From: Pomacea canaliculata
Taxonomy: Eukaryota > Mollusca > Gastropoda > Architaenioglossa > Ampullariidae
Direction of reading: 5' to 3'
DNA length: 64,000 nt
Assembly (NCBI RefSeq): GCF_003073045.1
Contig: NC_037601.1
Coordinates: 11,457,807-11,521,806, forward strand
Numbering within the stretch: the first letter of the stretch is position 1; every line of letters starts with the position of its first letter. The notes under the pieces are model-generated. The model was not told the DNA's origin and searched no databases. It was given only the letters and a program-made list of their open reading frames with translations. Shown in pieces: positions 3,839-64,000 of this stretch. A program made the position numbers and the translations under genes.

Positions 3839-3844
3839 TTTAAT
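3839..3844 (-). terminator. Putative poly(A) signal (ATTAAA) of the minus-strand DYNLRB gene
   Basis: The minus strand reads ATTAAA about 120 nt downstream of the stop codon at 3962. It is followed by a run of A on the minus strand. ATTAAA is the commonest variant of the animal poly(A) signal; its use here is inferred from position only. Confidence 0.35.
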
Positions 3845-3961: not shown

Positions 3962-5965
3962 TCACTTTTCTGGATTCTGAATGACAACCATCATGTAATC
4001 GCCCTCTGGAAACAGGCACACACACAAAAAAAGAAATTAATGAATGATTGTACTTAATTCTTGCAATTTAATATCACTGTTATAACCACTATACAAAATG
4101 ACCAAGTACTACTTAAATTTGATCGTCAGATTTTTTTTTATGGCATCTTTCTATATATATAACTGAAAAGATGTCTGCCAACTGACCTGGTGCACACATG
4201 ATTTCATGCTTTCTTGATCTCAAGCGAAGGAAGGTCAAGTCATTGGTGGGATCCATCTCTCGAATACAGTTGCGTCCCTTTGTACACAGATTTTGTATTG
4301 AGGCTGCGAGTTGCACAGTAGTTGGGGCATCCAGAGTGCTTTTAATGGGAATGCCTGCCACAATGTTTGTCAACGCATGTAATAAGAGATTCTTGCAAAA
4401 CTTTTTACAAAAGGAACTTCTGATAGGATCATATGGAACTGAAGTCTACAAAATTATGGTAAGGAACCAAGTCCCATCATAAATTGACCAATTCATTATT
4501 TGGCAATGCTTATTCTCGCTGCCATACTTCCATCACTGCCGTTAAGAAACTGTGTTGACATTTTCTGATAGGCAGCACCTGCAAGTCTCTCAGTAATAGT
4601 CTCTTGTACTACTGCTATTATCAGAACTGTAATTCTATGCTTCCTTACTTCCCTTTAACTTGTATACTCAAAGCTACATCGGTTAATACTCATAAAGCTG
4701 TATCAAATTGATGCAGTAAACAAATAAATTTGAACAATCAAAATGACTACACACCCATGCATATACTTGCTTGTGCATATCATATCATTGGTGTGACCAT
4801 AGATTACTTGTCAATGTATCTATTGATTTGCTGATAAACCTTGTAAATTTAAGGTTCTTCATCTTACCATCACTATTGAGTATGACAATGCCTGTGACGC
4901 CTTTATGACTTGCAATTCTCTTGACAGTTTCTTCCACTTCTGCCTGTTATAAGCACCAAGGAACAGGCAATTATAATAATATAATTATAATCTCATATAT
5001 AATATAATTATAATCTCAGTATTAATGTTTTTGAGAATTACCATGATTTGTTTTATTGTGTTACTATACATACTGCTAGGGCTTTCTGATTGTTGCTGTT
5101 TCAATGGATTATCATGTATCTTGTCACAATTCTTAAAGCTCAGTTAAATTAAAAACACAATTTTTTACCATAAATTAGAAAACAGACAGTTGACACTGTC
5201 ATTTTTATAACATATGGCTAAAAAGACAGATTTGTTGGAGTGACAATAATTGATAATACAATACCCAATTCTTAAGTTTACATGATTAAATAATTATTTT
5301 GACAGTACAGGTATAGAATCCCTACATCAAAAGACAAAACTGGAAAGAGAAACATTTATGCTAAGAATTTACAGAATATACTAATGCACACACCATGGGC
5401 ATATGTCGATTCATGTTAATATAATTATGCCATGGATGCAGCAAGCAAAACTTTGGTACAACACATTGCACGTCATACCAGATTCTAGCTCCTCGGGTAT
5501 GAGTAAAGGTCAGTCATTAATAACATTGTCGCATTATTTCTTCACTTACGGACTGTAAGCGAACGAGGGAAAATGAATAAACATGCAAACGGTTCTTCTA
5601 AAATCGTTCAAAAACAGTGAAGACAACCTAGCTAGTGTCAATGACGATGGCTCATTACATTTTTATTTATGTGGTGGTGGTGGCAGGGCCGTTTTGACAA
5701 TATGAGTCTCTTAAATATTTCTTCACAGTAAGTCGAAATGGCGAAAACAGTTGTTACGTTACGTTGCACAGCAGATGTTAGCTATATTTATATATAACAC
5801 TCTTCTCTCATTCATCATGTCTCCGAAGCAGTGTCAAACAGGTGCGCTTCTGATTTTAACCGTTTGGTAAACAGCTGTTTTTTAAAGCTTTAAGTGAGTA
5901 TACCGTTACTTAAACATACTGGCTAAAATAATCTTTCAAAAAAACGCATTTAAAGTACATACCAT
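3962..5965 (-). CDS. DYNLRB: Roadblock-type dynein light chain, divergent paralogue (4 coding exons)
   Basis: This is a small subunit of cytoplasmic/axonemal dynein; in the family, roadblock chains homodimerise and bind the dynein intermediate chain. Coding exons on the minus strand are 5965-5963 (ATG only, donor gtatgt), 4943-4868, 4354-4187 and 4005-3962, each with AG/GT borders. The spliced product is 96 residues, the usual length. It starts MAEVEETVKRI, has the family core GIPIKSTLD and DPTNDLTFLR, and ends MVVIQNPEK. Intron positions match those of the plus-strand neighbour at 6139, with which it shares roughly 58% identity by hand count. It departs from the canonical middle segment (LAASIQNLCTKGRN where most have an SxxxKARS-type helix), so it may be a specialised copy. 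The one-codon first exon is inferred from the splice context and is the least certain part. Confidence 0.85.
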
Positions 5966-6138
5966 ATCGAAAATTGTCTTTTATGGTTTAATGGTTGCTA
6001 GGATCGTAGACAAATTCACTGTACAGCCTTATCACCGCTGCGCATGCGTAGCCACAAGACCGTTTCCGGTGTAGAGCATAGCAACGGAAGTTTGAAAAAA
6101 CTGACTTCAGTTATTGCAAAGGTCTTCACATTTGTAGC
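5966..6138. promoter_or_regulatory. Putative bidirectional promoter between two DYNLRB genes
   Basis: Only 173 bp separate the two divergent start codons, so both promoters and 5'UTRs must lie here or overlap the flanks. The interval is CpG-bearing and contains a near-palindromic NRF-1-like site (TGCGCATGCGTA, 6039-6050), ETS-like cores (TTCCGG near 6064 and CGGAAG near 6085), and two RFX-like half sites pointing outward (GTTGCT 5994-5999, AGCAAC 6080-6085). No TATA box is obvious. RFX and NRF-1 control of ciliary or housekeeping genes is established in animals; their action here is inference. Confidence 0.6.
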
Positions 6139-8109
6139 ATGGCATCGGTGAGTAGATATATTAAGATATCCTAACTTTCATAGTTTATATAGTCAGTGCA
6201 TGTAAATTGATCGGATTTCTCGCCGATTTACTTGTGCTTATGGTGTGTTACAGGAAGTTGAGGAAACGCTGAAGAGAATTTCAGGTCTGAAAGGCGTTTT
6301 AGGAAGTATTGTCATCAGCTCTGATGGTTAGTTCCTTACATGGATCTTTTTGAATTGTATAGTGTTGCGTCATTTTTGGTAATTGTTTCTTAAATAAGAA
6401 GTAAATTTTTTTGTGTTTGATGTTTTGCTGTTGGAGTATCGCATTTTCTAGCGTAGGAATAGTGACTGATGTCAGGGAGCCAATGACTTAGATCGAAAAC
6501 CACATCGTCCCAGCCGTATCAACTCAACCGAGTCAACCCGGCCGACCAAATCAACTCACGTAAAACAAAATCGACCCAACTCTGAAAGTTGAATCAACCT
6601 AAACCCAAAATTAATCAGTTACCAATTATATAAGTAGATATTCAAGTCAAATATTGCCAACAAAACCATGCAAACAAAGCGACTTTGTCACATGGTTAAA
6701 TTGAGCTCTCTGTATAATTGGCCGACCTTGCATGTTGTTACTTTTAACACACTGACATTGCCATGGTGGATGTTAGTTATATAGATATATCAAATGCATG
6801 AAATTGAAGACTGTATGTATCAGTCTTTCTGCTTGTCTCACATATCTATTGTCCATCTGTATATTGGGAGAGAGAGAGAGAGTATGTGAGAGACAGAGAG
6901 ACTGCATATGCACTTGTCATTAAATTTGTGAAGATAGCACGTATTTTTTTTAGTCAGCACCTTGTATAGCAGTCGTATATGAATGTGCATATATGGACCA
7001 TTTAATGGTGTCATGATGTCAAATTTTCTTCATATGCATAATGTATAATTATAATTATATATGTTTATGGTTAGGTATTCCCATCCGAACAACACTGGAC
7101 AACTCTACAACTGTACAGTATGCTGGATTGCTCACTGCCCTTGTTGCTAAAGCACGCTCAGTTGTTCGTGATTTAGATCCAAGCAACGACCTGAGCTTCT
7201 TACGCATTCGATCTAAAAAGAGTGAGATCATGTGTGCACCCTGTAAGTTTATGAGAAACAATTTTATGTACCATAACATTTGCACATTTTTCAATAACTA
7301 ACAAAGAATGCCCTGTGTTGAATTCCTTTAAATTGGAGGAACTGTTTTTGCACTCACAAAGAAACCACAGTTCCAACTTTTATCACACATATCTTCAGTT
7401 TAGGATAAGCCTAATTTGCTCTGCGTCCACTTTTTCAGCTTGGATCAGTAGTCAGCAAGATCTTAAAGAATTTAATAACATCCTTGTGGATGCAGATCAT
7501 CTTTGTGAAAGCAAATAAAAAAAAACCCATTGAAAGATATGTTCAAGCTTGTATGTTTTCCCCTCTTTCTTTACTGATAAAGATTTCCCTATCCGACAGG
7601 GTCATCAACTTCAGCAACATATTTTTAAACAATTCAGTACTTCTCATAACAGGTTCTAAAACTGCAGATCTTCAGCTTCAGGTTTTTGTGTCAAACTGGG
7701 GCCTGACCAGTTCAATTTGGCACATACACACACAAATACTACAGAGCCCAGACACTGTACATAAAACATCATCACAATTTTTTATTGTCTTTTTGAAAAG
7801 TCAAAGTTTTTAAATTAATAGTTAACTTTCTACATTATAAAGTGGACAACTTAAAAAAACTGATTTTAACGTGGACAGTGTAAGTTGTGACTAACTCACA
7901 GCTCTAACTGTAGATACCATTAATTATACCATTAACTGGAGATATTTTATTTATACACTGTTAGGAAATAAGGTATGTAATATCTGAGCTAAATATGACC
8001 AAAACCATCATTTGTAATACATTCTGAGATGCTTTCTTTTCTATTTCATTTGTATTTTACAGGTCGCGACTACCTGCTGGTTGTGATCCAAACTTCAGAG
8101 ACACCATAA
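6139..8109 (+). CDS. DYNLRB: Roadblock-type dynein light chain, canonical copy (4 coding exons)
   Basis: This is a dynein light chain of the roadblock/LC7 family, expected to bind the dynein intermediate chain as a dimer in cytoplasmic and/or ciliary dynein. Coding exons are 6139-6147 (MAS, donor gtgagt), 6254-6326, 7075-7242 and 8063-8109, all with AG/GT borders and consistent phases. The 98-residue product begins [14 protein letters not shown], carries [37 protein letters not shown] and [12 protein letters not shown], and ends [11 protein letters not shown]. This is very close to vertebrate DYNLRB1/2, which are 96 residues; I cannot tell which of the two it represents. It is the more conserved of the two neighbours. 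An AATAAA lies at 8159-8164, 50 nt past the stop. The CAP-Cys-Arg-Asp junction is made by splicing T onto GT. Confidence 0.92.
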
Positions 8110-8158: not shown

Positions 8159-8164
8159 AATAAA
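8159..8164 (+). terminator. Poly(A) signal AATAAA of the plus-strand DYNLRB gene
   Basis: A canonical AATAAA begins 50 nt after the stop codon at 8107-8109, which gives a very short 3'UTR. No better candidate lies nearer. Confidence 0.65.
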
Positions 8165-17388: not shown

Positions 17389-20300
17389 CTATTTCATATC
17401 CCACAAGACACTATCCGTCAGGCCGTTACACTCAGCAATATAATCCAGCTGGCATATGTACTTCTTCATATCCATCATGAAACTTGGAATGCGAGTATTG
17501 TCCAGCACGCTAAGCTCGGACAAACGATCGACATCTTCATGAGCTATTTTGCCCAGTCTCATCAGCATCTCAAAATCCAGAGTGTGTCGGTGCTTCAAGA
17601 GCTGCAGTGCACCTTCTAGGTACACCTGATCCTTACAGAACGTACCTGTAACAGTAACACAACACATATATAATGTGACTGTTAAAAGGAAAATAATACG
17701 TACTTGCCAGGCAGAATGATAATTTGGTAGACAGGAAAGAGAAAAGATTTGATAAGGATGAGAGGAAGTGGGGTATTGGCGTTTTACTTCCAGGCAGCAA
17801 CTAAGGCTATATCACGGCATGGCAGCCAGCCGTGTAAACAGATGCCACAAGCAGAGAAAGAACAGCGTGCACGAGACGAAAGCTGAACCCAGGACAGCCA
17901 ACCCTTACTGTAGTGGTGACAGGCGCTAACCATTGTGCCACTGGTCCCACAAAAGATTTGATGAAAATGACAAGAACGAAACGTGGGCAACATATGAGAA
18001 ACGGAAGAACAAGCAAACAACAGATGAACGACGAAAAGATAACAAACAGTACTATTCTTACAGTTTTTAAAATAAAAGGATTTAAAGCAGCAAGTAAGCA
18101 AGCTTTAAAGTTTAATAAGTGATAAGAAAGCTTCCGCTGGCATTAACTCTTTCATGACAGTATGCGCACCTGGTACTGAAGTATCTGTCTGACCTCGTTT
18201 GGCTCTGACACAGTAGTCCCAGCGTGTGCTGGGGCTCTTTAGAAACTTGCCCAGATCTGCAAAGAGATCTCTGAAAGACAGGTGTGCAGCTTTATAAGTG
18301 ACATAGTACAGAAGTGCTGCCCGCCAGAGGTAAGGGTATGGCCGATTGATTACAGAATGAAGTGAAGCCAGCCCCTCCTCTGTAGGGTTGTAATGCTGAA
18401 GCATCATTTCCTCACGCTGAATTGGTGAGGCCCAAAGCTGGTGACGATTATTGCAACTACGCAGGTAATGGGTACCTAGTAGATCACAAAATAATTAATG
18501 TATTAAATAACTATGAAATATGAAAAATACGCTCTCTCTTTCTCTCTAGATCACACACCCACACCAGCCTCTGCCTCTAAGGAGAAAAAAGCTAATGTTA
18601 CCAATTTCATGCTGAAGCAGTCCATCACACCAGTATTCACGCGTATTCAAAACACGCACAGTCAGGTGTGGCCATCCTTTTTTCTGTGTCATAGACGCCG
18701 TTGACAGGAGGTCCTCGCTCAAGTTTACCTAAACAAGAAAACTGAAATGTATTTAGGGTTTATTTCCTACCATTTGAACCTTCTAAAAACTTTTAAGTAG
18801 TAGTGATATAATCAACATTATCGTATAATTGTCTGCAAACTTTAAGCATTAGTGATATAGTCAATCTTAGAATATAATATCATAATTGTCTGCAACAGTG
18901 CAAGCAAACAAATAGCACACAGGAAATTGTGAGAGTACATAGCAGTAGTTTTGTAATTATAATAAATATACATTTAAATATTTTCTTCAGAAATATACAA
19001 TACTGCAAACTCCCAAAGCCTGTTGTAATAAACGCTTCTGTATCTCATGCTAACATTCAGTTCATGGAAGTCATGAGCAGGCAACAAGAACCATAAAGAA
19101 GGCTACAGTAACCAAGTATAACAATACATAAACAATATTTTGAAGGCTATGGTTACAAAGTGTAAATATATTATCAATATTTTGACAAAAAAGTGTAGCA
19201 GAGCAGAACTGCTCAGTTTGTAATAATATGTTGTCACTTCAACCTATCCTTCAAGCCACCATCATATATGAATGCAGGAGCTTGGGTATGTTAATGAGAT
19301 ATTGTCTTAAAAATAAACTTATTCCCACAGAAAATAATGTTTAGCACCCTTACCAAATGCAAGTGAAAATTATTATATTGTTGAAAAGCTTACATCTTGT
19401 GAATGGAACAGTGCTATTTGTTCAAAATTTTGTAATGAACCATTTGATAATAAATCTGCACTTCGATCAGCATGTCTGGAAGAAATTAATCTAGTCTCAC
19501 AAGGTTTCTCATCAATCATATGCTGATGACACACAACTGTACTGCTCCACTCTACCGGCTGAGTCTCACTCTGCTATTAGCGCCATAGAAGCCTGTATTA
19601 ACGATGTCAAAGACTGGATGGTAACAAACAAACTCAACGATGATAAAACGGAAGCCCTCCTATGTTTGAGAAGAAGAAATCCATCTTCACTCGTTTGTCC
19701 CCCAAATCACATCAAGGTGTGCGACACCAACATCACCTTTGTGTCATTCGTCAGGAACCTGGGATTCATTGTCACTGCAGACATGACTCTTGATAAACAA
19801 GTCACAGCTGTCTGTCAATCTGCCTATTATGAGCTAAGATCAGCGCCATCTGTCACATTCTGTCTACACACACTACCAATACTCTTGTCTGAGTCTTTGT
19901 TTTATCCAGACTTGATTACTGCAACTCCTTGCTTGCTGGCTGCCCTGTATACCTTCTTCACAAACTCCAGAAAGTACAGAACTCTGCTAAAACGTCCGGT
20001 GCTTAGAGCTAGGAAATAGGACCACGCCACCCCTCTCCTTCATTGTCTTTACTTGCTTCCCATCCATCCTTGCATCCAGTACAAACTGTCCGTGCTGTGT
20101 TTAAATTTCTTTGATGGCACCTGCCCTGATTATTTCTCTGAACTGTTCTTCCCTTACATCCCAGATAGACAGCTCCGCTCCTCATCTGATGTTCGTCTCC
20201 TTACTCTTCCTGTCACCAAAACAACAACATATGGCCGCAGGATTTTTAGTTATTGTGCTGCAAACCAATGGAACTCTCTCCCTCTCCATATCCGCCACCT

Positions 20301-22120
20301 ACCCACCATTGAATCCTTTAAACGTGCACTGAAGACACACCTCTTCCATCAGCATTACTCCTAACAACCTTTCCCATCATGCTAATATTTTTCCACACCC
20401 TTCCCTGCTAGTCTTTCTTTTGCAATATCACGATACTCTCAGTTCTCGTTATTTGGTTCCTCTTTGCATTTTCTGCATTTGTTTTTATTCATCATTAGTG
20501 CTGTTGCTTATTCTTTCTTAGTTCATGTGTTGTTTTCTGTATGCTGTCCATGTCTCATTCTTATTCTTAGGCGCTAAGAGCATGCTTCTTACGAGTGTGA
20601 GTATGCGCTTCAAAAATTTTGCATTAATTATATATCATTATAATATGTGGTTATAGGGTGAAAATGACATTGCAGGATATGGGTTATGCAGGAAATGGCT
20701 TAGGCAGGATATGGTGTGATAGATGCCTGTGTTTCTCGTTGGCTTCCACAGCCCGTCTACCTGTATTGTGGTGACTAAAAGGACAGTCAATACTAGGCAG
20801 GCTGGGAGTGTACGCATTGAAAGAGTTAATACACCATGAGTTTGGTCATTGCAGCTTCTGTCTGAGAAAGATTTTCCATCATTTGTGAGGGTGGATGCAA
20901 GATACCCCGAAGCCTAAACTTCTTCCAGTTTGTTTCTATTCATGGTGATATTGGTATGAGTGTCAGTTGTGGTGTTAACTTACTATCTGAGCTGCTGTCT
21001 GGTCCACCTGCTTGCACTCATGGTGCGTGCTTGTCCAAAATTATGTAAACTGAAATTCTAAGATTATTTCACCAACAGTCACAGACTGATAGAACAAAAT
21101 ATTCCTTATTCTACTAACCTTTATCTCCGACTCCAGCTTCTCTTTTTTGAGATAACGCTTTACAAGAGCTAAGATCTGTGAACGTGATAGAACAGGACCA
21201 CCTGATGTGTCTTCAAATTCCTCATAGCTGCCAAACTCACTAATTACACTATCCATGATGTTAATAGCCTGCAAGCAACAAATAAAGAATCCTGTGAACA
21301 GAAGGCAAATAAGCCCTTCTCTTGGCATTTTTAAAAGATGGTACTTAGATCATGGTAAGTGTAATATTGTGTGGAGAAAAACTGAATAACTAAATCACTT
21401 AAGCAGTAAAAACACAAATCTAAGGCACTTCATCTAATTCATTGAAGTTGATGAGTGAAACAATATTTGCTTGTGTGGTTAAAGGAGGAAATATGCAAAA
21501 CAAGAAGTGTGTATATATACTTTTTTCAAATGGTAATCAGATGGTGTATTGAATTTCTCCATCATTCTCTCATCTGCAGCACAACGGTACACGAAGAATG
21601 GGTTATAGTTAAAGTTTGCCCTCATGAATCGATCTCTCTCTGACTTCTCATTTTCTGGTGTTATGGAAACCAAAAGTGGAAGCTTCATTTTGTACTCATG
21701 TGGCTGCTGCAACCTCATATATCTTGATCGTGGAAGACACAACATGCTCAGACGTTCAGAAACTGTCCTTATTCTTAGTCTGTGTGTCTGTGCTTTGCTT
21801 TTCCTGAAGTGGAGCTCTCTTTTGGGAACAGAGATATCTTTGCTTTCTGATTTATCTTTGCTATTTGAAGTTTTGGAAACAGAAGACACTAGCGATGGAC
21901 AGGACACAGATGATATTTTTTTTTTCCGTCTTGCAGCGTTTTTCTTTTGAATCCTTCTAGCTGGTTCTGCTCCTGTTTGCTTTGTGATGCATCCATGTGA
22001 TGATGTCAACATGCGATCAGACAACAAAATCGAGCTGCTGAAGTTATTGAAGGACTGTTCTGGATCTGAATTTTCATAAATTTCAGAATAAGGAGCGGTT
22101 TCCATATGCCATCTTGCCAT
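17389..22120 (-). CDS. MATCAP: Microtubule-associated tyrosine carboxypeptidase (MATCAP/KIAA0895 family), 5 coding exons
   Basis: This metallopeptidase family removes the C-terminal tyrosine of alpha-tubulin at microtubules. Coding exons on the minus strand are 22120-21521, 21268-21119, 18728-18602, 18475-18170 and 17645-17389; all have AG/GT borders and matching phases, and give 479 residues, close to human MATCAP1/2. Residues 1-168 are basic and poorly conserved, as in relatives. The conserved part starts with NFNYNPFF (169-176), then [20 protein letters not shown], the zinc motif HEIGTH (290-295, HExxxH, split by an intron after Gly), [12 protein letters not shown] with the likely third ligand Glu326, [24 protein letters not shown] and CKDQVYLEG. 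The active site is intact. The ATG is the first after an in-frame TAA at 22153-22151 and has a good AAAATGG context. A SINE and a LINE lie in its introns. Vertebrates have two copies; I cannot say which this equals. Confidence 0.93.
17768..17950 (-). mobile_element. tRNA-derived SINE in a MATCAP intron
   Basis: On the minus strand it opens with a tRNA-like head (A-box TGGCACAATGG, B-box-like GGTTCAGCTTTCG), followed by a CTGTTTACACGGCTGGCTG core, CCGTGATATAGCCTTAGT and GTAAAACGCCAATACCCC at the 3' end. It lies in the intron between the last two MATCAP coding exons, in the same orientation as the gene. It is the best-preserved copy of the family in the window. Confidence 0.8.
19480..20645 (+). 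mobile_element. L2/CR1-like LINE, 3' half, antisense in a MATCAP intron
   Basis: The plus strand encodes the second half of a non-LTR reverse transcriptase: the catalytic SYADDTQLY box (from about 19516), [17 protein letters not shown], and after frame changes the C-terminal segment [20 protein letters not shown] ending THLFHQHYS at 20361. The 3'UTR ends with GCGCTAAGAGC...ACGAGTGTGAGTATGCGCT. It is 5'-truncated, with several stops and frameshifts in the RT part, so it is inactive. It lies opposite to the host gene, between the exons at 18728 and 21119. Confidence 0.88.
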
Positions 22121-46900: not shown

Positions 46901-47456
46901 GGATAATTATTTACTTACCGCTATAATTTAGTAGCATAGGTTTACACATATACCCCCTACCTCACACGCACATAAACATGCATGGTCCTTCTTTCTCTCT
47001 TTTTACACACATTCACATGCTTATTATTTAGCCATTCATTTGTGCTTTGCACAAAATAATCAGCTCTTTGTGGAGTACATGTTGACCTGGAAATAAAGTG
47101 CTTGAAGAATGCAGGGGCTCAGAAGAATGACAGAATTTACAAAATAAATACATCCGAAAAATAGGTAACTTTGGTTTTTGTTAAATAGGGAAATAACATA
47201 AGCATTGAAGACCAAAGTAGCAGGTTTGTACCCAGGGTAGATCTCTTAAAGCTCTAAAATGAGCTCACACTGCTAATTTAGAGTGAATCTCATATTGAAG
47301 ATGATTTGCCTTAAAACCTAAATGTCTCAGACTAAGCACCCCTGAGCAGGCTTCACATAAGATGCATCTTCTTTATGTTGTAGATTCCAGGCCTATTTTC
47401 CAGAATTCAACCAGAATTTCATCAAGCAAGTATATTATTAACTACTGTTAAGAACA

Positions 47457-48449
47457 ATGGCCAAGATTATAAATGGCAACCATAACACTTTAACTTCTGA
47501 TGATGGGCCAATGAATGGACACATCCTGGTCACAGGAGGAGCAGGCTACATTGGGTCAACGCTCATTCCTATGTTGCTGGAACGTGGGTATGAAGTCACC
47601 TGCTATGACCGCTTTCTATGGGGAGTAAGTCCCCTTCTTTCTGTAATAGAAAATGCACGATTTCACATCATCAAAGGAGACATCCTTGATAAGGATTTAC
47701 TGAGGCAAGCCATGGCTGGAAAAACTGGTGTGGTGCATCTGGCTGCCATAGTGGGATACCCAGCATGTGACAAAGATCCTGAACTTGCTCAAGCAGTTAA
47801 TGTTGAGGGAACGCGTAATGTAGTGCAGCTGAAGATGCCTGACCAGCCTGTGATCTATGCCAGCACAGGTTCTTGTTATGGGGCTGTAGAGGGTGTCTGC
47901 ACAGAAGAGACCCACATATCACCACTTTCTTTATATGGCCGCAGCAAAGCGGAGGGAGAGCAGCTAGTGCTGAATGCTGGAGGCACTGCATTACGTCTTG
48001 CCACAGTTTTTGGCATATCACCTCGAATGCGTTTGGATCTCTTGGTGAATGATCTCACCTATAAAGCCCTGACCATTAAAGAGTTTGACTTGTATGAGGG
48101 CCACTTCCGTCGCACCTTCCTTCATGTACGAGATGCAGCCCGGGCTTTCATATTTGCTCTTGAGAAGCAGAAGATTATGCATGGGCAGGCCTATAATGTT
48201 GGTGATGAGTGCATGAATCTCACCAAAAATGAAGTAGCTCAAATTATCCAAAGCAAGGTGCCCAGCTGCAATATTGTGGTGTCAACAACAGGTGAGGACA
48301 AAGACAAGAGAGACTATGAAGTTTCTTATGAAAAAATTCGTCGTCTTGGCTTCCGTTCTAGTCTTAGTGTGGAACAAGGTGTCCATAGCTTGCTCAAGGT
48401 ACTGCCCAATCTACTTCCTGAGGAGGTTGCTCGATGCAAAAATGTCTAA
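47457..48449 (+). CDS. NAD-dependent nucleotide-sugar epimerase/dehydratase, extended SDR family, single exon
   Basis: The 330-residue protein is a complete extended short-chain dehydrogenase: Rossmann motif TGGAGYIG (26-33), Asp51 at the end of the second strand for the NAD ribose, GDI (74-76), HLAA (94-97), STGSCYG (136-142) and the catalytic Tyr160-x-x-x-Lys164 (YGRSK). [13 protein letters not shown] and YNVGDE fit the substrate lobe of UDP-sugar epimerase-type enzymes. The exact substrate cannot be read. [18 protein letters not shown] closely recalls bacterial NAD-dependent epimerases. The start is the first ATG after an in-frame TAA at 47439-47441, in context AACAATGG. There is no intron in 993 bp, whereas other host genes here are cut into exons of 44 to 600 bp. 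The CDS looks GC-richer than its AT-rich flanks. No leader or membrane segment is seen, so it is probably cytosolic. Transfer from bacteria or retrocopying are both possible. Confidence 0.92.
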
Positions 48450-61899: not shown

Positions 61900-63939
61900 T
61901 CAACACCTTTTAATTTCTTCCTGTAATCTATCAATGTCTGACTGAATCTTTGTTATCTCCTTCTTCTTGTCTTTGGCTAACAAACGCATGTTGTTAGATC
62001 TTTCAATAAGTGAAAAACTTTTTTGCTCTTCAGCCTGGAAACTATGTCTGTCAGCCAGTTCCAGCAGGTGTCGTTCTTCGGCACTGGTGGTCTTTAGCCT
62101 TTTTGTGAGTATTACCAGCTCATCTCCTAATCTCTTTCTGTGGACCTGCTTTTCTTCTGTTTCCTTCTGCTGCTTCTGCTCAGAGAGGTAACGTTCATAC
62201 CTGCCATAGGCACTAGAAGCGGATATCATCAGTGGTTTGGAGATCTCAACATTTTCCACCCCTCCCACACTGTGAATATGATCAAGAATTACTCTGCGTG
62301 CTTTTAGTGCAGTCTGACTAAGATTGTCAGCTACTGTTTCTTTGTTGAATGAAAATCCTCTTTCCACTGTAGCTTGACCATGAGAGAGTAGGAGTAACTG
62401 TCTGACAACAGACCACAACACCTGAAACTCTGCTTTTCCAGCAAGGGCATCATAAAACCAACTATCCAGTCTTTGTCATAGGGTCAAAAGCCTTACTACC
62501 ACACTCACCTGCAGAACTGTCAAGAAAATTACGGAACTCTGACAATACCTTGTCACAAGTCACATCATCAAACCTTTTCACACCTTGGCAATACAACAAA
62601 ACCTTTTTCATTTTTTGTATTGATTTGTCTTTTTCCCCCATGGTCTTTGGGTTTAAGAAAGTTATGTTTCTCACTAGGGTGTACTTCAGTGGAGATTTAT
62701 CCTGCAATTTTAGAACAACTGCTTTCAAAAAATCTCTGCATTCAGCTCTGAAGGCCATGAGAGTTCCATCGTTTACTGATGACTGTTTCTTAGCTACAGC
62801 CAGTAGTCTATCAACCCTGAAGCCAAGTTCGATCATGCTCAGATTGACATGGTTAGAACTGTTGCATATATCAACCTGCACAAGTTGGAGGGCAGTTTCA
62901 CATTTATTAAGTACATTTGACTTGATAAATTTGTGCATCAGATTTTTCATAATGTCATGTAAGTCTAAACAAAGGAAAGGAAGAAGAGGCTGATCAGCTT
63001 GGTATTTTCTCAAAAAAGGTTCAAGTATACTGGCAATTAAACTAAAGAAAGCCAGACGACATGAAAGCAAAGGGGTAGATAAGACTCCAGCTTTTACAAT
63101 ATCAAAAGATTTGTTCTTTGGCAATGTTATTTTTTTCTCCATTGCAGCTTTGACAAATTTTTCCAAGTATGGAAGCATAACAATTGCTTTTTCAGCAACA
63201 GAATTGTTTTCAAGCCATCGGTGAGCACAGAACTTGGCTGGAAAAGATGTGGAACCAGTTACTTTTATATAATCTTCTCTTCTGGCTGGGCTGTCTCTGA
63301 ACAAGATATAAGCAGATGTAAGAAATGACTCAAGCTCCCATTGAGAAGCCTCGCACCCACGCCTAAATGCATTGTGCATAACATGGAGTCCACAGCTGCC
63401 CACATTTAACAAACCAACATTGTGATTGGTAATCATGTCGTTATTAATTTTCTCAAGAAGGTTTAGGTTTACAGAAGGTCCATCCATAGAAATTTGAAGT
63501 AAATTAGCTTGCTTGAAGTTTGATTCGCTAATTACCTTACTGAACTTTTGTTGAAGGTCTATGGCCGCGGAATGACCCAAAAATTCCGAGGTCAGGTAAT
63601 GAGTCCTTACAGCATTGTCACTCCAGTAACGAACATGGAAATCCAGCTGTTTAGTTTGAGTCTTATGGTTAGAAGATTCATCAAACAAAAGAACATACTC
63701 AGGCGACGAATTTACACAGTCCAGAAGCAATTTCGAAAAGTGAGGAGCAAGCCCAAATGAAGTTAGATAACTGGCTTTTGTTTGACCGCACTTAAATTCT
63801 GCAGCTACTTGGCTGTCTGGGAACATAAGTCGAAACAGTTCAGCAGACTTTTCAGCAGATCTGAAACTGTAGTGTGATTCCACAATCTTGAGAGTCCACA
63901 GGATCTCTGCCTTCAATCGTTCATTGCTCATCACGAAAC
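61900..63939 (-). CDS. hAT-superfamily transposase-like gene, nearly complete, one frame disruption, runs off the window
   Basis: The main frame (63939-62462) has about 490 codons and begins right after an acceptor (TTTGAATAG|GTTTCGTG), so an upstream exon, perhaps with a zinc finger, lies outside the window. It contains LLFDESSN (possible first catalytic Asp, about residue 84), ISMDGPSVN (second, about 150), VGSCGLHVMHNAF and SPARREDYIKVTGS, FCAHRWLENN, which I know from hAT-like proteins of aquatic animals. Near GACAAAGACTGGATAG (about 62475) the frame shifts by one base. It resumes as LDSWFYDALAGKAEFQVLW and SHGQATVERGFSFNKETV, the hAT C-terminal dimerisation motif (SxAxxERxFS), then a coiled, Lys/Glu-rich tail to 61900. 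A single shift in 2 kb of otherwise open sequence suggests a young pseudogene or a sequencing error. Terminal repeats were not found inside the window. Confidence 0.85.
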
Positions 63940-64000
63940 CTATTCAAAGAAAACATTTAAGTTACCATTATGTCTGTAAACATTATGTTCTGTCTGAATA

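Follow-up and report, generated by a model that had tools for sequence, protein, structure and literature searches.

A head-to-head pair of roadblock/LC7 dynein light chain genes in the snail Pomacea canaliculata and its candidate bidirectional promoter

Do two dynein light chain paralogs that face away from each other across 173 bp share a promoter, and how did they come to be arranged in this way? The question is raised by a 64-kb window of the Pomacea canaliculata assembly (C12:11457807-11521806; all positions below are coordinates within this window), which contains two intact roadblock/LC7 dynein light chain (DYNLRB) genes in divergent, head-to-head orientation. We consider it probable that an old inverted duplication of a DYNLRB gene left two copies with a shared bidirectional promoter, that these are likely co-expressed, and that the copy on the minus strand has come to fill a narrower role.

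The start codons lie at 5965 (minus gene) and 6139 (plus gene), and each reading frame is spread over four coding exons (Table 1). All introns of both models are GT-AG, the intron phases are 0, 1, and 1 in each gene, and exon 3 is 168 nt long in both. The first coding exon holds three codons in the plus gene (MAS/EVEE, with the slash marking the intron) and one in the minus gene (M/AEVEE), so that intron 1 is offset by one codon between the copies; the "identical exon structure" described in an earlier note on this DNA therefore holds for exon number and phases but is, taken as a whole, near-identical only. Exon 2 of the minus gene starts in phase 0, is without a methionine, and has an in-frame TAA one codon upstream, so that a separate start-codon exon is required, which ATG/GTATGT at 5965 provides. 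AATAAA is absent from the 660 bp scanned downstream of the minus gene (possible polyadenylation signals of both genes are given in Table 1). The earlier note had proposed a head-to-head DYNLRB pair with 173 bp between its starts, and gene models that fall where it had placed them, together with matches to Pfam and to solved chains, bear this out; two complete divergent models with the same intron phases likewise uphold its proposal of an inverted, intron-carrying local duplication.

The Pfam domain Robl_LC7 (PF03259) covers nearly the whole length of both proteins (plus copy, 82.5 bits, residues 5-92; minus copy, 82.6 bits, residues 4-92; cut-off 23). Among solved chains, the best match of the plus protein is 3l7h, which we take to be Drosophila roadblock (E-value 4.4e-39), followed by two DYNLRB2 chains (9.6e-39 and 1.3e-38); 3l7h is also the best match of the minus protein (9.8e-36), with DYNLRB1 and DYNLRB2 chains at ~2e-35 to 4e-35. 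Given these Pfam scores and E-values, the DYNLRB pair is not a chance match, and both genes are predicted from their sequence to encode roadblock/LC7 dynein light chains. Dynein roadblock chains rank first among the 25 solved sequences matched per snail protein; 7f8f, a Robl_LC7 domain protein, matches farther (E-values 9.7e-17 and 5.9e-13 for the two snail proteins), 9y6s_7Q, with a Roadblock/LAMTOR2 domain, matches weakly (7.3e-6 and 6.8e-5), and the LAMTOR5 Pfam scores of 23.4 and 22.0 lie under that model's cut-off of 27. A specific orthology to LC7a or LC7b was considered and rejected: the 7kzm chains, presumably those of Chlamydomonas, score 97.9/97.7 bits (LC7a) and 92.8/92.6 bits (LC7b), and because these scores are equal for both copies neither is specifically LC7a or LC7b.

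Searches of the snail's own genome covered the 440,159,624-base assembly in 24 contigs, and the counts they give are lower bounds. A third DYNLRB gene was not found when this assembly was searched with the Robl_LC7 family and with the minus, plus, and DYNLRB2 proteins. The family search returned a third match, on C1, which was rejected as a DYNLRB gene since its exon translation reads LAMTOR2-like, a label that is our own assumption. Two weaker matches were also set aside: C1:17528047-17528190 was hit by the minus protein only (38% identity, E-value 0.02) and contains three stops, such that it is either chance or an unrecognizable relic, and a match on C11 to the DYNLRB2 query (two stops, E-value 0.73) was dismissed as chance. 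A scan of viral contigs for relatives gave 12 pattern matches, none of which was confirmed.

The plus and minus proteins are identical at 56 of 96 aligned residues. Nonsynonymous divergence (dN) between the copies is 0.33 and synonymous divergence (dS) is 1.5, a dN/dS ratio of about 0.2; the bootstrap 95% range of dS is 0.88 to 3.2 (280 of 300 replicates defined). In a 90-codon core, 24 of the 53 conserved residues are written with identical codons, compared with a shuffle mean of 21.6, and a count of 24 or more arises in 1239 of the 5000 shuffles. This level of codon identity, no higher than in the shuffles, and the value of dS argue that silent sites are saturated and hence that the duplication is old; the same shuffle test of the core gives no sign of recent gene conversion between the copies. 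A recent palindromic duplication was rejected in addition on the basis of blastn between the two halves of the locus. Eight alignments were obtained at an E-value of at most 1, of which two are significant and lie in exons (85 bp at 74% in exon 3 and 44 bp at 80% in exon 2) and the remaining six (13-34 bp, E-values 0.17 to 0.58) were discarded; neither flanking nor intronic homology was seen to be preserved between the halves, which again argues that the duplication is not recent. Together, the codon comparisons indicate an old duplication with both copies under purifying constraint.

Judging from its composition and position, the 173-bp interval is most likely a shared TATA-less, CpG-retaining bidirectional promoter. 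Its GC content is 0.42 and its CpG observed/expected ratio (o/e) is 1.04, and neither TATAWAW nor CCAAT occurs within it. The eight CpGs that it contains are not rare, as 416 of 3192 segments of 173 bp have as many, but the interval lies within a CpG-retaining domain over both starts that is made up of the sole two CpG-retaining runs in the first 12 kb. At the center of this domain the 600-bp CpG o/e is 0.99; 127 of the 1268 segments overall, and 12 of the 188 that lie in the first 10 kb, score at least as high, so that the domain is locally distinct, not rare. That the CpG-rich stretch 6440-6720 derives from a repeat was considered and rejected, given that a search, which passes over simple repeats and highly frequent words, found it in one copy only.

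Thirteen motif patterns were tried on the interval, of which six match, for three factors, and seven are without a match. The sites are labeled with patterns that we take to represent NRF1, ETS, and RFX (Table 1). The RFX half-site pattern GTTGCYA occurs twice in the interval compared with 0.046 sites expected (17 in the window; P ~0.001 before correction for the 13 patterns), and its two sites are inverted relative to each other. A perfect palindrome that carries TCAGTT on both strands could, speculatively, represent paired initiator-like elements. The promoters of a sponge contain NRF1 motifs as do those of vertebrates (PMC4773876), and mouse Dynlrb2 is among the cilia- and flagella-related genes of a study of RFX2 in spermiogenesis (PMC4745085). 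The motif content thus fits a bidirectional promoter having a ciliary component, without establishing one.

Several observations weigh against a shared promoter. CpG-retaining runs are common elsewhere, with 22 listed across the 64-kb window and 2 here. A full X-box was not seen: the two half-sites are 85 bp apart, and a check of their flanks by eye, with no scored X-box search, gave no good partner for either. FOXJ1-, CCAAT-, Sp1-, E2F-, CRE-, and YY1-type patterns are absent from the interval. In the sponge, the motifs of unidirectional and bidirectional promoters were reported to show no major differences (PMC4773876), such that a motif of NRF1 type does not single out bidirectional promoters. 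Either gene may, in addition, have introns in its 5' untranslated region (UTR) or distant alternative promoters. The two genes could, then, be neighbors by duplication that possess two separate unidirectional core promoters and little co-regulation, the gap between them being a passive relic, and we give this alternative a real though distinctly smaller share of our confidence. Saturated silent sites imply ample time for regulatory divergence, and the mammalian paralogs DYNLRB1 and DYNLRB2 are present in mutually exclusive cell types in the mouse (PMC10042829). However, one CpG-retaining domain spans both starts, and both 5' UTRs, if unspliced, must begin within the 173 bp or close by, which would place any two core promoters very near each other.

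Table 1. Coordinates of the two gene models and of sequence elements at the locus (positions within the 64-kb window)
Feature	Position	Strand	Details
DYNLRB-like plus copy	6139..8109	+	Splicing model; coding exons 6139-6147, 6254-6326, 7075-7242, 8063-8109; 98 aa
DYNLRB-like minus copy	3962..5965	-	Splicing model; coding exons 5963-5965, 4868-4943, 4187-4354, 3962-4005; 96 aa
AATAAA, possible polyadenylation signal of plus gene	8159..8164	+	
ATTAAA, possible variant polyadenylation signal of minus gene	3839..3844	-	
Interval between start codons, proposed shared bidirectional promoter	5966..6138	.	One match in genome by search used
CpG-retaining domain over both starts	5321..6800	.	Overlapping runs 5321-6360 and 6141-6800
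NRF1-like GCGCATGCGT	6040..6049	+	Only GCGCATGCGY in 64-kb window; 0.003 expected in 173 bp
ETS-like CCGGAAA (TTTCCGG on +)	6063..6069	-	0.024 expected
RFX half-site-like GTTGCTA (half X-box)	5994..6000	+	
Second RFX half-site-like site (TAGCAAC on +)	6079..6085	-	Inverted relative to first
Perfect palindrome AACTGA-CT-TCAGTT	6099..6112	.	Only AACTGA-NN-TCAGTT in window

The copies have not diverged equally. Five outside chains (5 of the 25 matched solved sequences, with protist chains left out of the comparison) have 60 invariant columns; the minus copy departs from them at 17 of these and the plus copy at 10, and the plus copy is nearer to 3l7h and the DYNLRB2 chains. The size of this difference depends on the outgroup used in relative-rate tests: it is significant with DYNLRB2 (5 plus-unique versus 18 minus-unique residues, chi-square 7.35), borderline with the fly sequence (7 versus 16, chi-square 3.52), and not significant with DYNLRB1 (7 versus 13, chi-square 1.80). 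The motif LAASIQNLCTKGRN flagged in the minus copy is present as quoted and corresponds to residues 42-55, which we take to be the central helix. This region contains six of the invariant columns, of which four are changed in the minus copy and none in the plus copy; in the 54 invariant columns outside it, the minus copy has changed 13 and the plus copy 10. The changes of the minus copy are enriched in residues 42-55 with a one-sided P of 0.048, for a region picked after the fact. Near the C-terminus, V80, D83, K84, and I89 are altered in both copies. By these counts the minus copy is the more altered one and both copies depart from the family. The picture of a canonical plus copy and a specialized minus copy is therefore right about which copy has moved farther, but the plus copy is not fully canonical, and the changes of the minus copy extend beyond the flagged stretch.

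The 17 altered columns and the one-codon first exon might be taken to mean that the minus copy is decaying and is not a working gene. We regard this as highly improbable: its reading frame and splice sites are intact, a polyadenylation-like signal is present, dN/dS between the copies is about 0.2, and its Pfam score equals that of the plus copy.

Whether the duplication is independent of the one that gave rise to vertebrate DYNLRB1 and DYNLRB2 bears directly on how the arrangement arose. The human pair lies at 20q and 16q, in apparent whole-genome-duplication blocks, which would speak for independence. Both snail copies carry four residues (S25, D26, C80, and V89 in DYNLRB numbering) that none of the five outside chains has, and the snail copies group together in the best tree, built from six sequences after one near-identical DYNLRB2 chain was omitted, with branch lengths of 0.22 for the plus and 0.48 for the minus copy. 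The support for this grouping is, however, low (58%), and the approximately unbiased (AU) test rejects none of five chosen topologies, one of which, with the plus copy joined to DYNLRB2 and the minus copy apart, is excluded by bootstrap proportion alone. An origin independent of the mammalian paralogs, as the earlier note had it, is hence favored by the snail-only residues and the best tree, and is not proven, since the AU test rejects no topology.

The alternative is that the pair is ancient, with the minus copy an ortholog of DYNLRB1, the plus copy an ortholog of DYNLRB2, and a linked bilaterian pair later split in vertebrates. Residues of DYNLRB2 type are found in the plus copy (R31, T32, and S37) and of DYNLRB1 type in the minus copy (I20, K31, S32, and P37), and the corresponding topology has an AU p of 0.34 with a log-likelihood 3.7 worse than the best. 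Yet K31 and S32 of the minus copy are also found in fly roadblock and may therefore be ancestral, the four residues present in both snail copies occur in 0 of the 5 outside chains, and the copies pair with each other in the best tree; we judge the ancient pair to be very unlikely.

The analysis shows the gene models at this locus, the number of DYNLRB copies found, and how far these have diverged and stayed conserved; what we infer is a shared promoter, co-expression, and a division of labor. According to this old-duplication account, a roadblock-type light chain gene would have been duplicated head-to-head long ago in the lineage leading to the snail, and both copies would have remained intact, flanking one short regulatory interval. 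This interval would act as one open-chromatin region drawing NRF1, ETS, and RFX-type factors, with one core promoter per direction. Broad co-expression is the expectation for a shared bidirectional promoter, and the two genes may be broadly co-expressed, especially in dividing and in ciliated or flagellated cells. Each protein would form a roadblock dimer that holds the two dynein intermediate chains in a clamp close to the WD repeats, as has been described for the roadblock dimer (PMC10886578); for the snail proteins both homodimerization and intermediate-chain binding are predicted from homology. Mammalian DYNLRB2 is able to rescue a knock-down of Dynlrb1 (PMC10042829), and the snail proteins, by analogy, probably have comparable functions in dyneins that overlap, the minus copy being the more specialized one. 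The less diverged plus copy would keep the general role, and the faster-evolving minus copy, with changes to its central helix and close to the C-terminal strand, would act with fewer dyneins or dimer partners. A further proposal is that the promoter-locked pair is the animal's whole DYNLRB supply, that the fixed subunit ratio leads to a heterodimer in dynein, and that this dosage constraint has long preserved the pair across mollusks. A precedent for such an association exists in protist outer-arm dynein, which contains an LC7a/LC7b heterodimer; we hold the proposal to be unlikely for the snail.

Other features of the window include, at 17392-17811 (-), an open frame weakly similar to MATCAP (PF08014; 23.7 bits where the cut-off is 27, E-value 2.9e-5). 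MATCAP is a microtubule-associated tyrosine carboxypeptidase, and the frame could represent one exon of a gene, not far from the dynein pair, for an enzyme that modifies tubulin; a search of the snail's own genome with the MATCAP family gave no match, but its controls gave none either. A single 335-codon open frame at 47442-48446 (+) matches the nicotinamide adenine dinucleotide (NAD)-dependent epimerase/dehydratase family (PF01370, E-value 5.1e-39, residues 28-254) and may be a retrocopy, a horizontal transfer, or an ordinary gene. A pair of long frames (493 and 191 aa) at 61903-63943 (-) and adjoining frames of 174 and 114 aa at 19495-20361 (+) have no Pfam match at an E-value of 0.001; our impression is that the former look like a protein of DNA-transposon type and the latter like the reverse transcriptase tail of a retrotransposon lacking long terminal repeats (non-LTR).

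As the outcome of an inverted gene duplication long ago, the pair is neat and rather ordinary, and divergent paralog pairs are already known. It is notable in that these are the only DYNLRB genes found and their silent sites are saturated, yet the 173-bp interval is still common to both. Mammalian roadblock subunits are expressed from separate loci. The contrast with the mutually exclusive expression in mouse testis (PMC10042829) raises the question of whether light chain paralogs need separate regulation, and the snail pair poses another, namely whether two unlike roadblocks made together form homodimers or a heterodimer. Among the titles and abstract beginnings listed in literature searches, none describes this snail pair, which is not proof of its being unpublished.

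Among known systems, vertebrate DYNLRB1 and DYNLRB2 resemble the snail genes in being two roadblock light chain paralogs in one genome. In humans they are on different chromosomes. The mammalian proteins are 75% identical and one of them is up-regulated in testis (PMC10042829), in contrast to the snail copies, which are head-to-head, more divergent (56/96 identical), and probably of separate origin. Drosophila roadblock belongs to the same family and is the best solved match of both snail copies; arthropod roadblock repertoires are very species-specific, with five to eight additional copies in drosophilids, and a promoter-sharing head-to-head pair is not described for them in the available part of PMC2674883. 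Head-to-head pairs in general are frequent in certain animals; for Drosophila, PMC4773876 quotes a figure of 4,398 genes (32.2%). Bidirectional promoters are taken here as those of divergent genes with start sites <1 kb apart; in the snail the start codons are 173 bp apart, and the interval resembles animal bidirectional promoters in being TATA-less and in containing an NRF1-like element. Unlike such pairs in general, the snail genes are paralogs of each other and the sole DYNLRB genes found in the genome. Other divergent paralog pairs include COL4A1/COL4A2 and histone H2A/H2B, paralogous or stoichiometric partners with one intergenic promoter and known co-regulation, which differ from the snail pair in belonging to other protein families and in that co-regulation of the snail genes is predicted from their arrangement.

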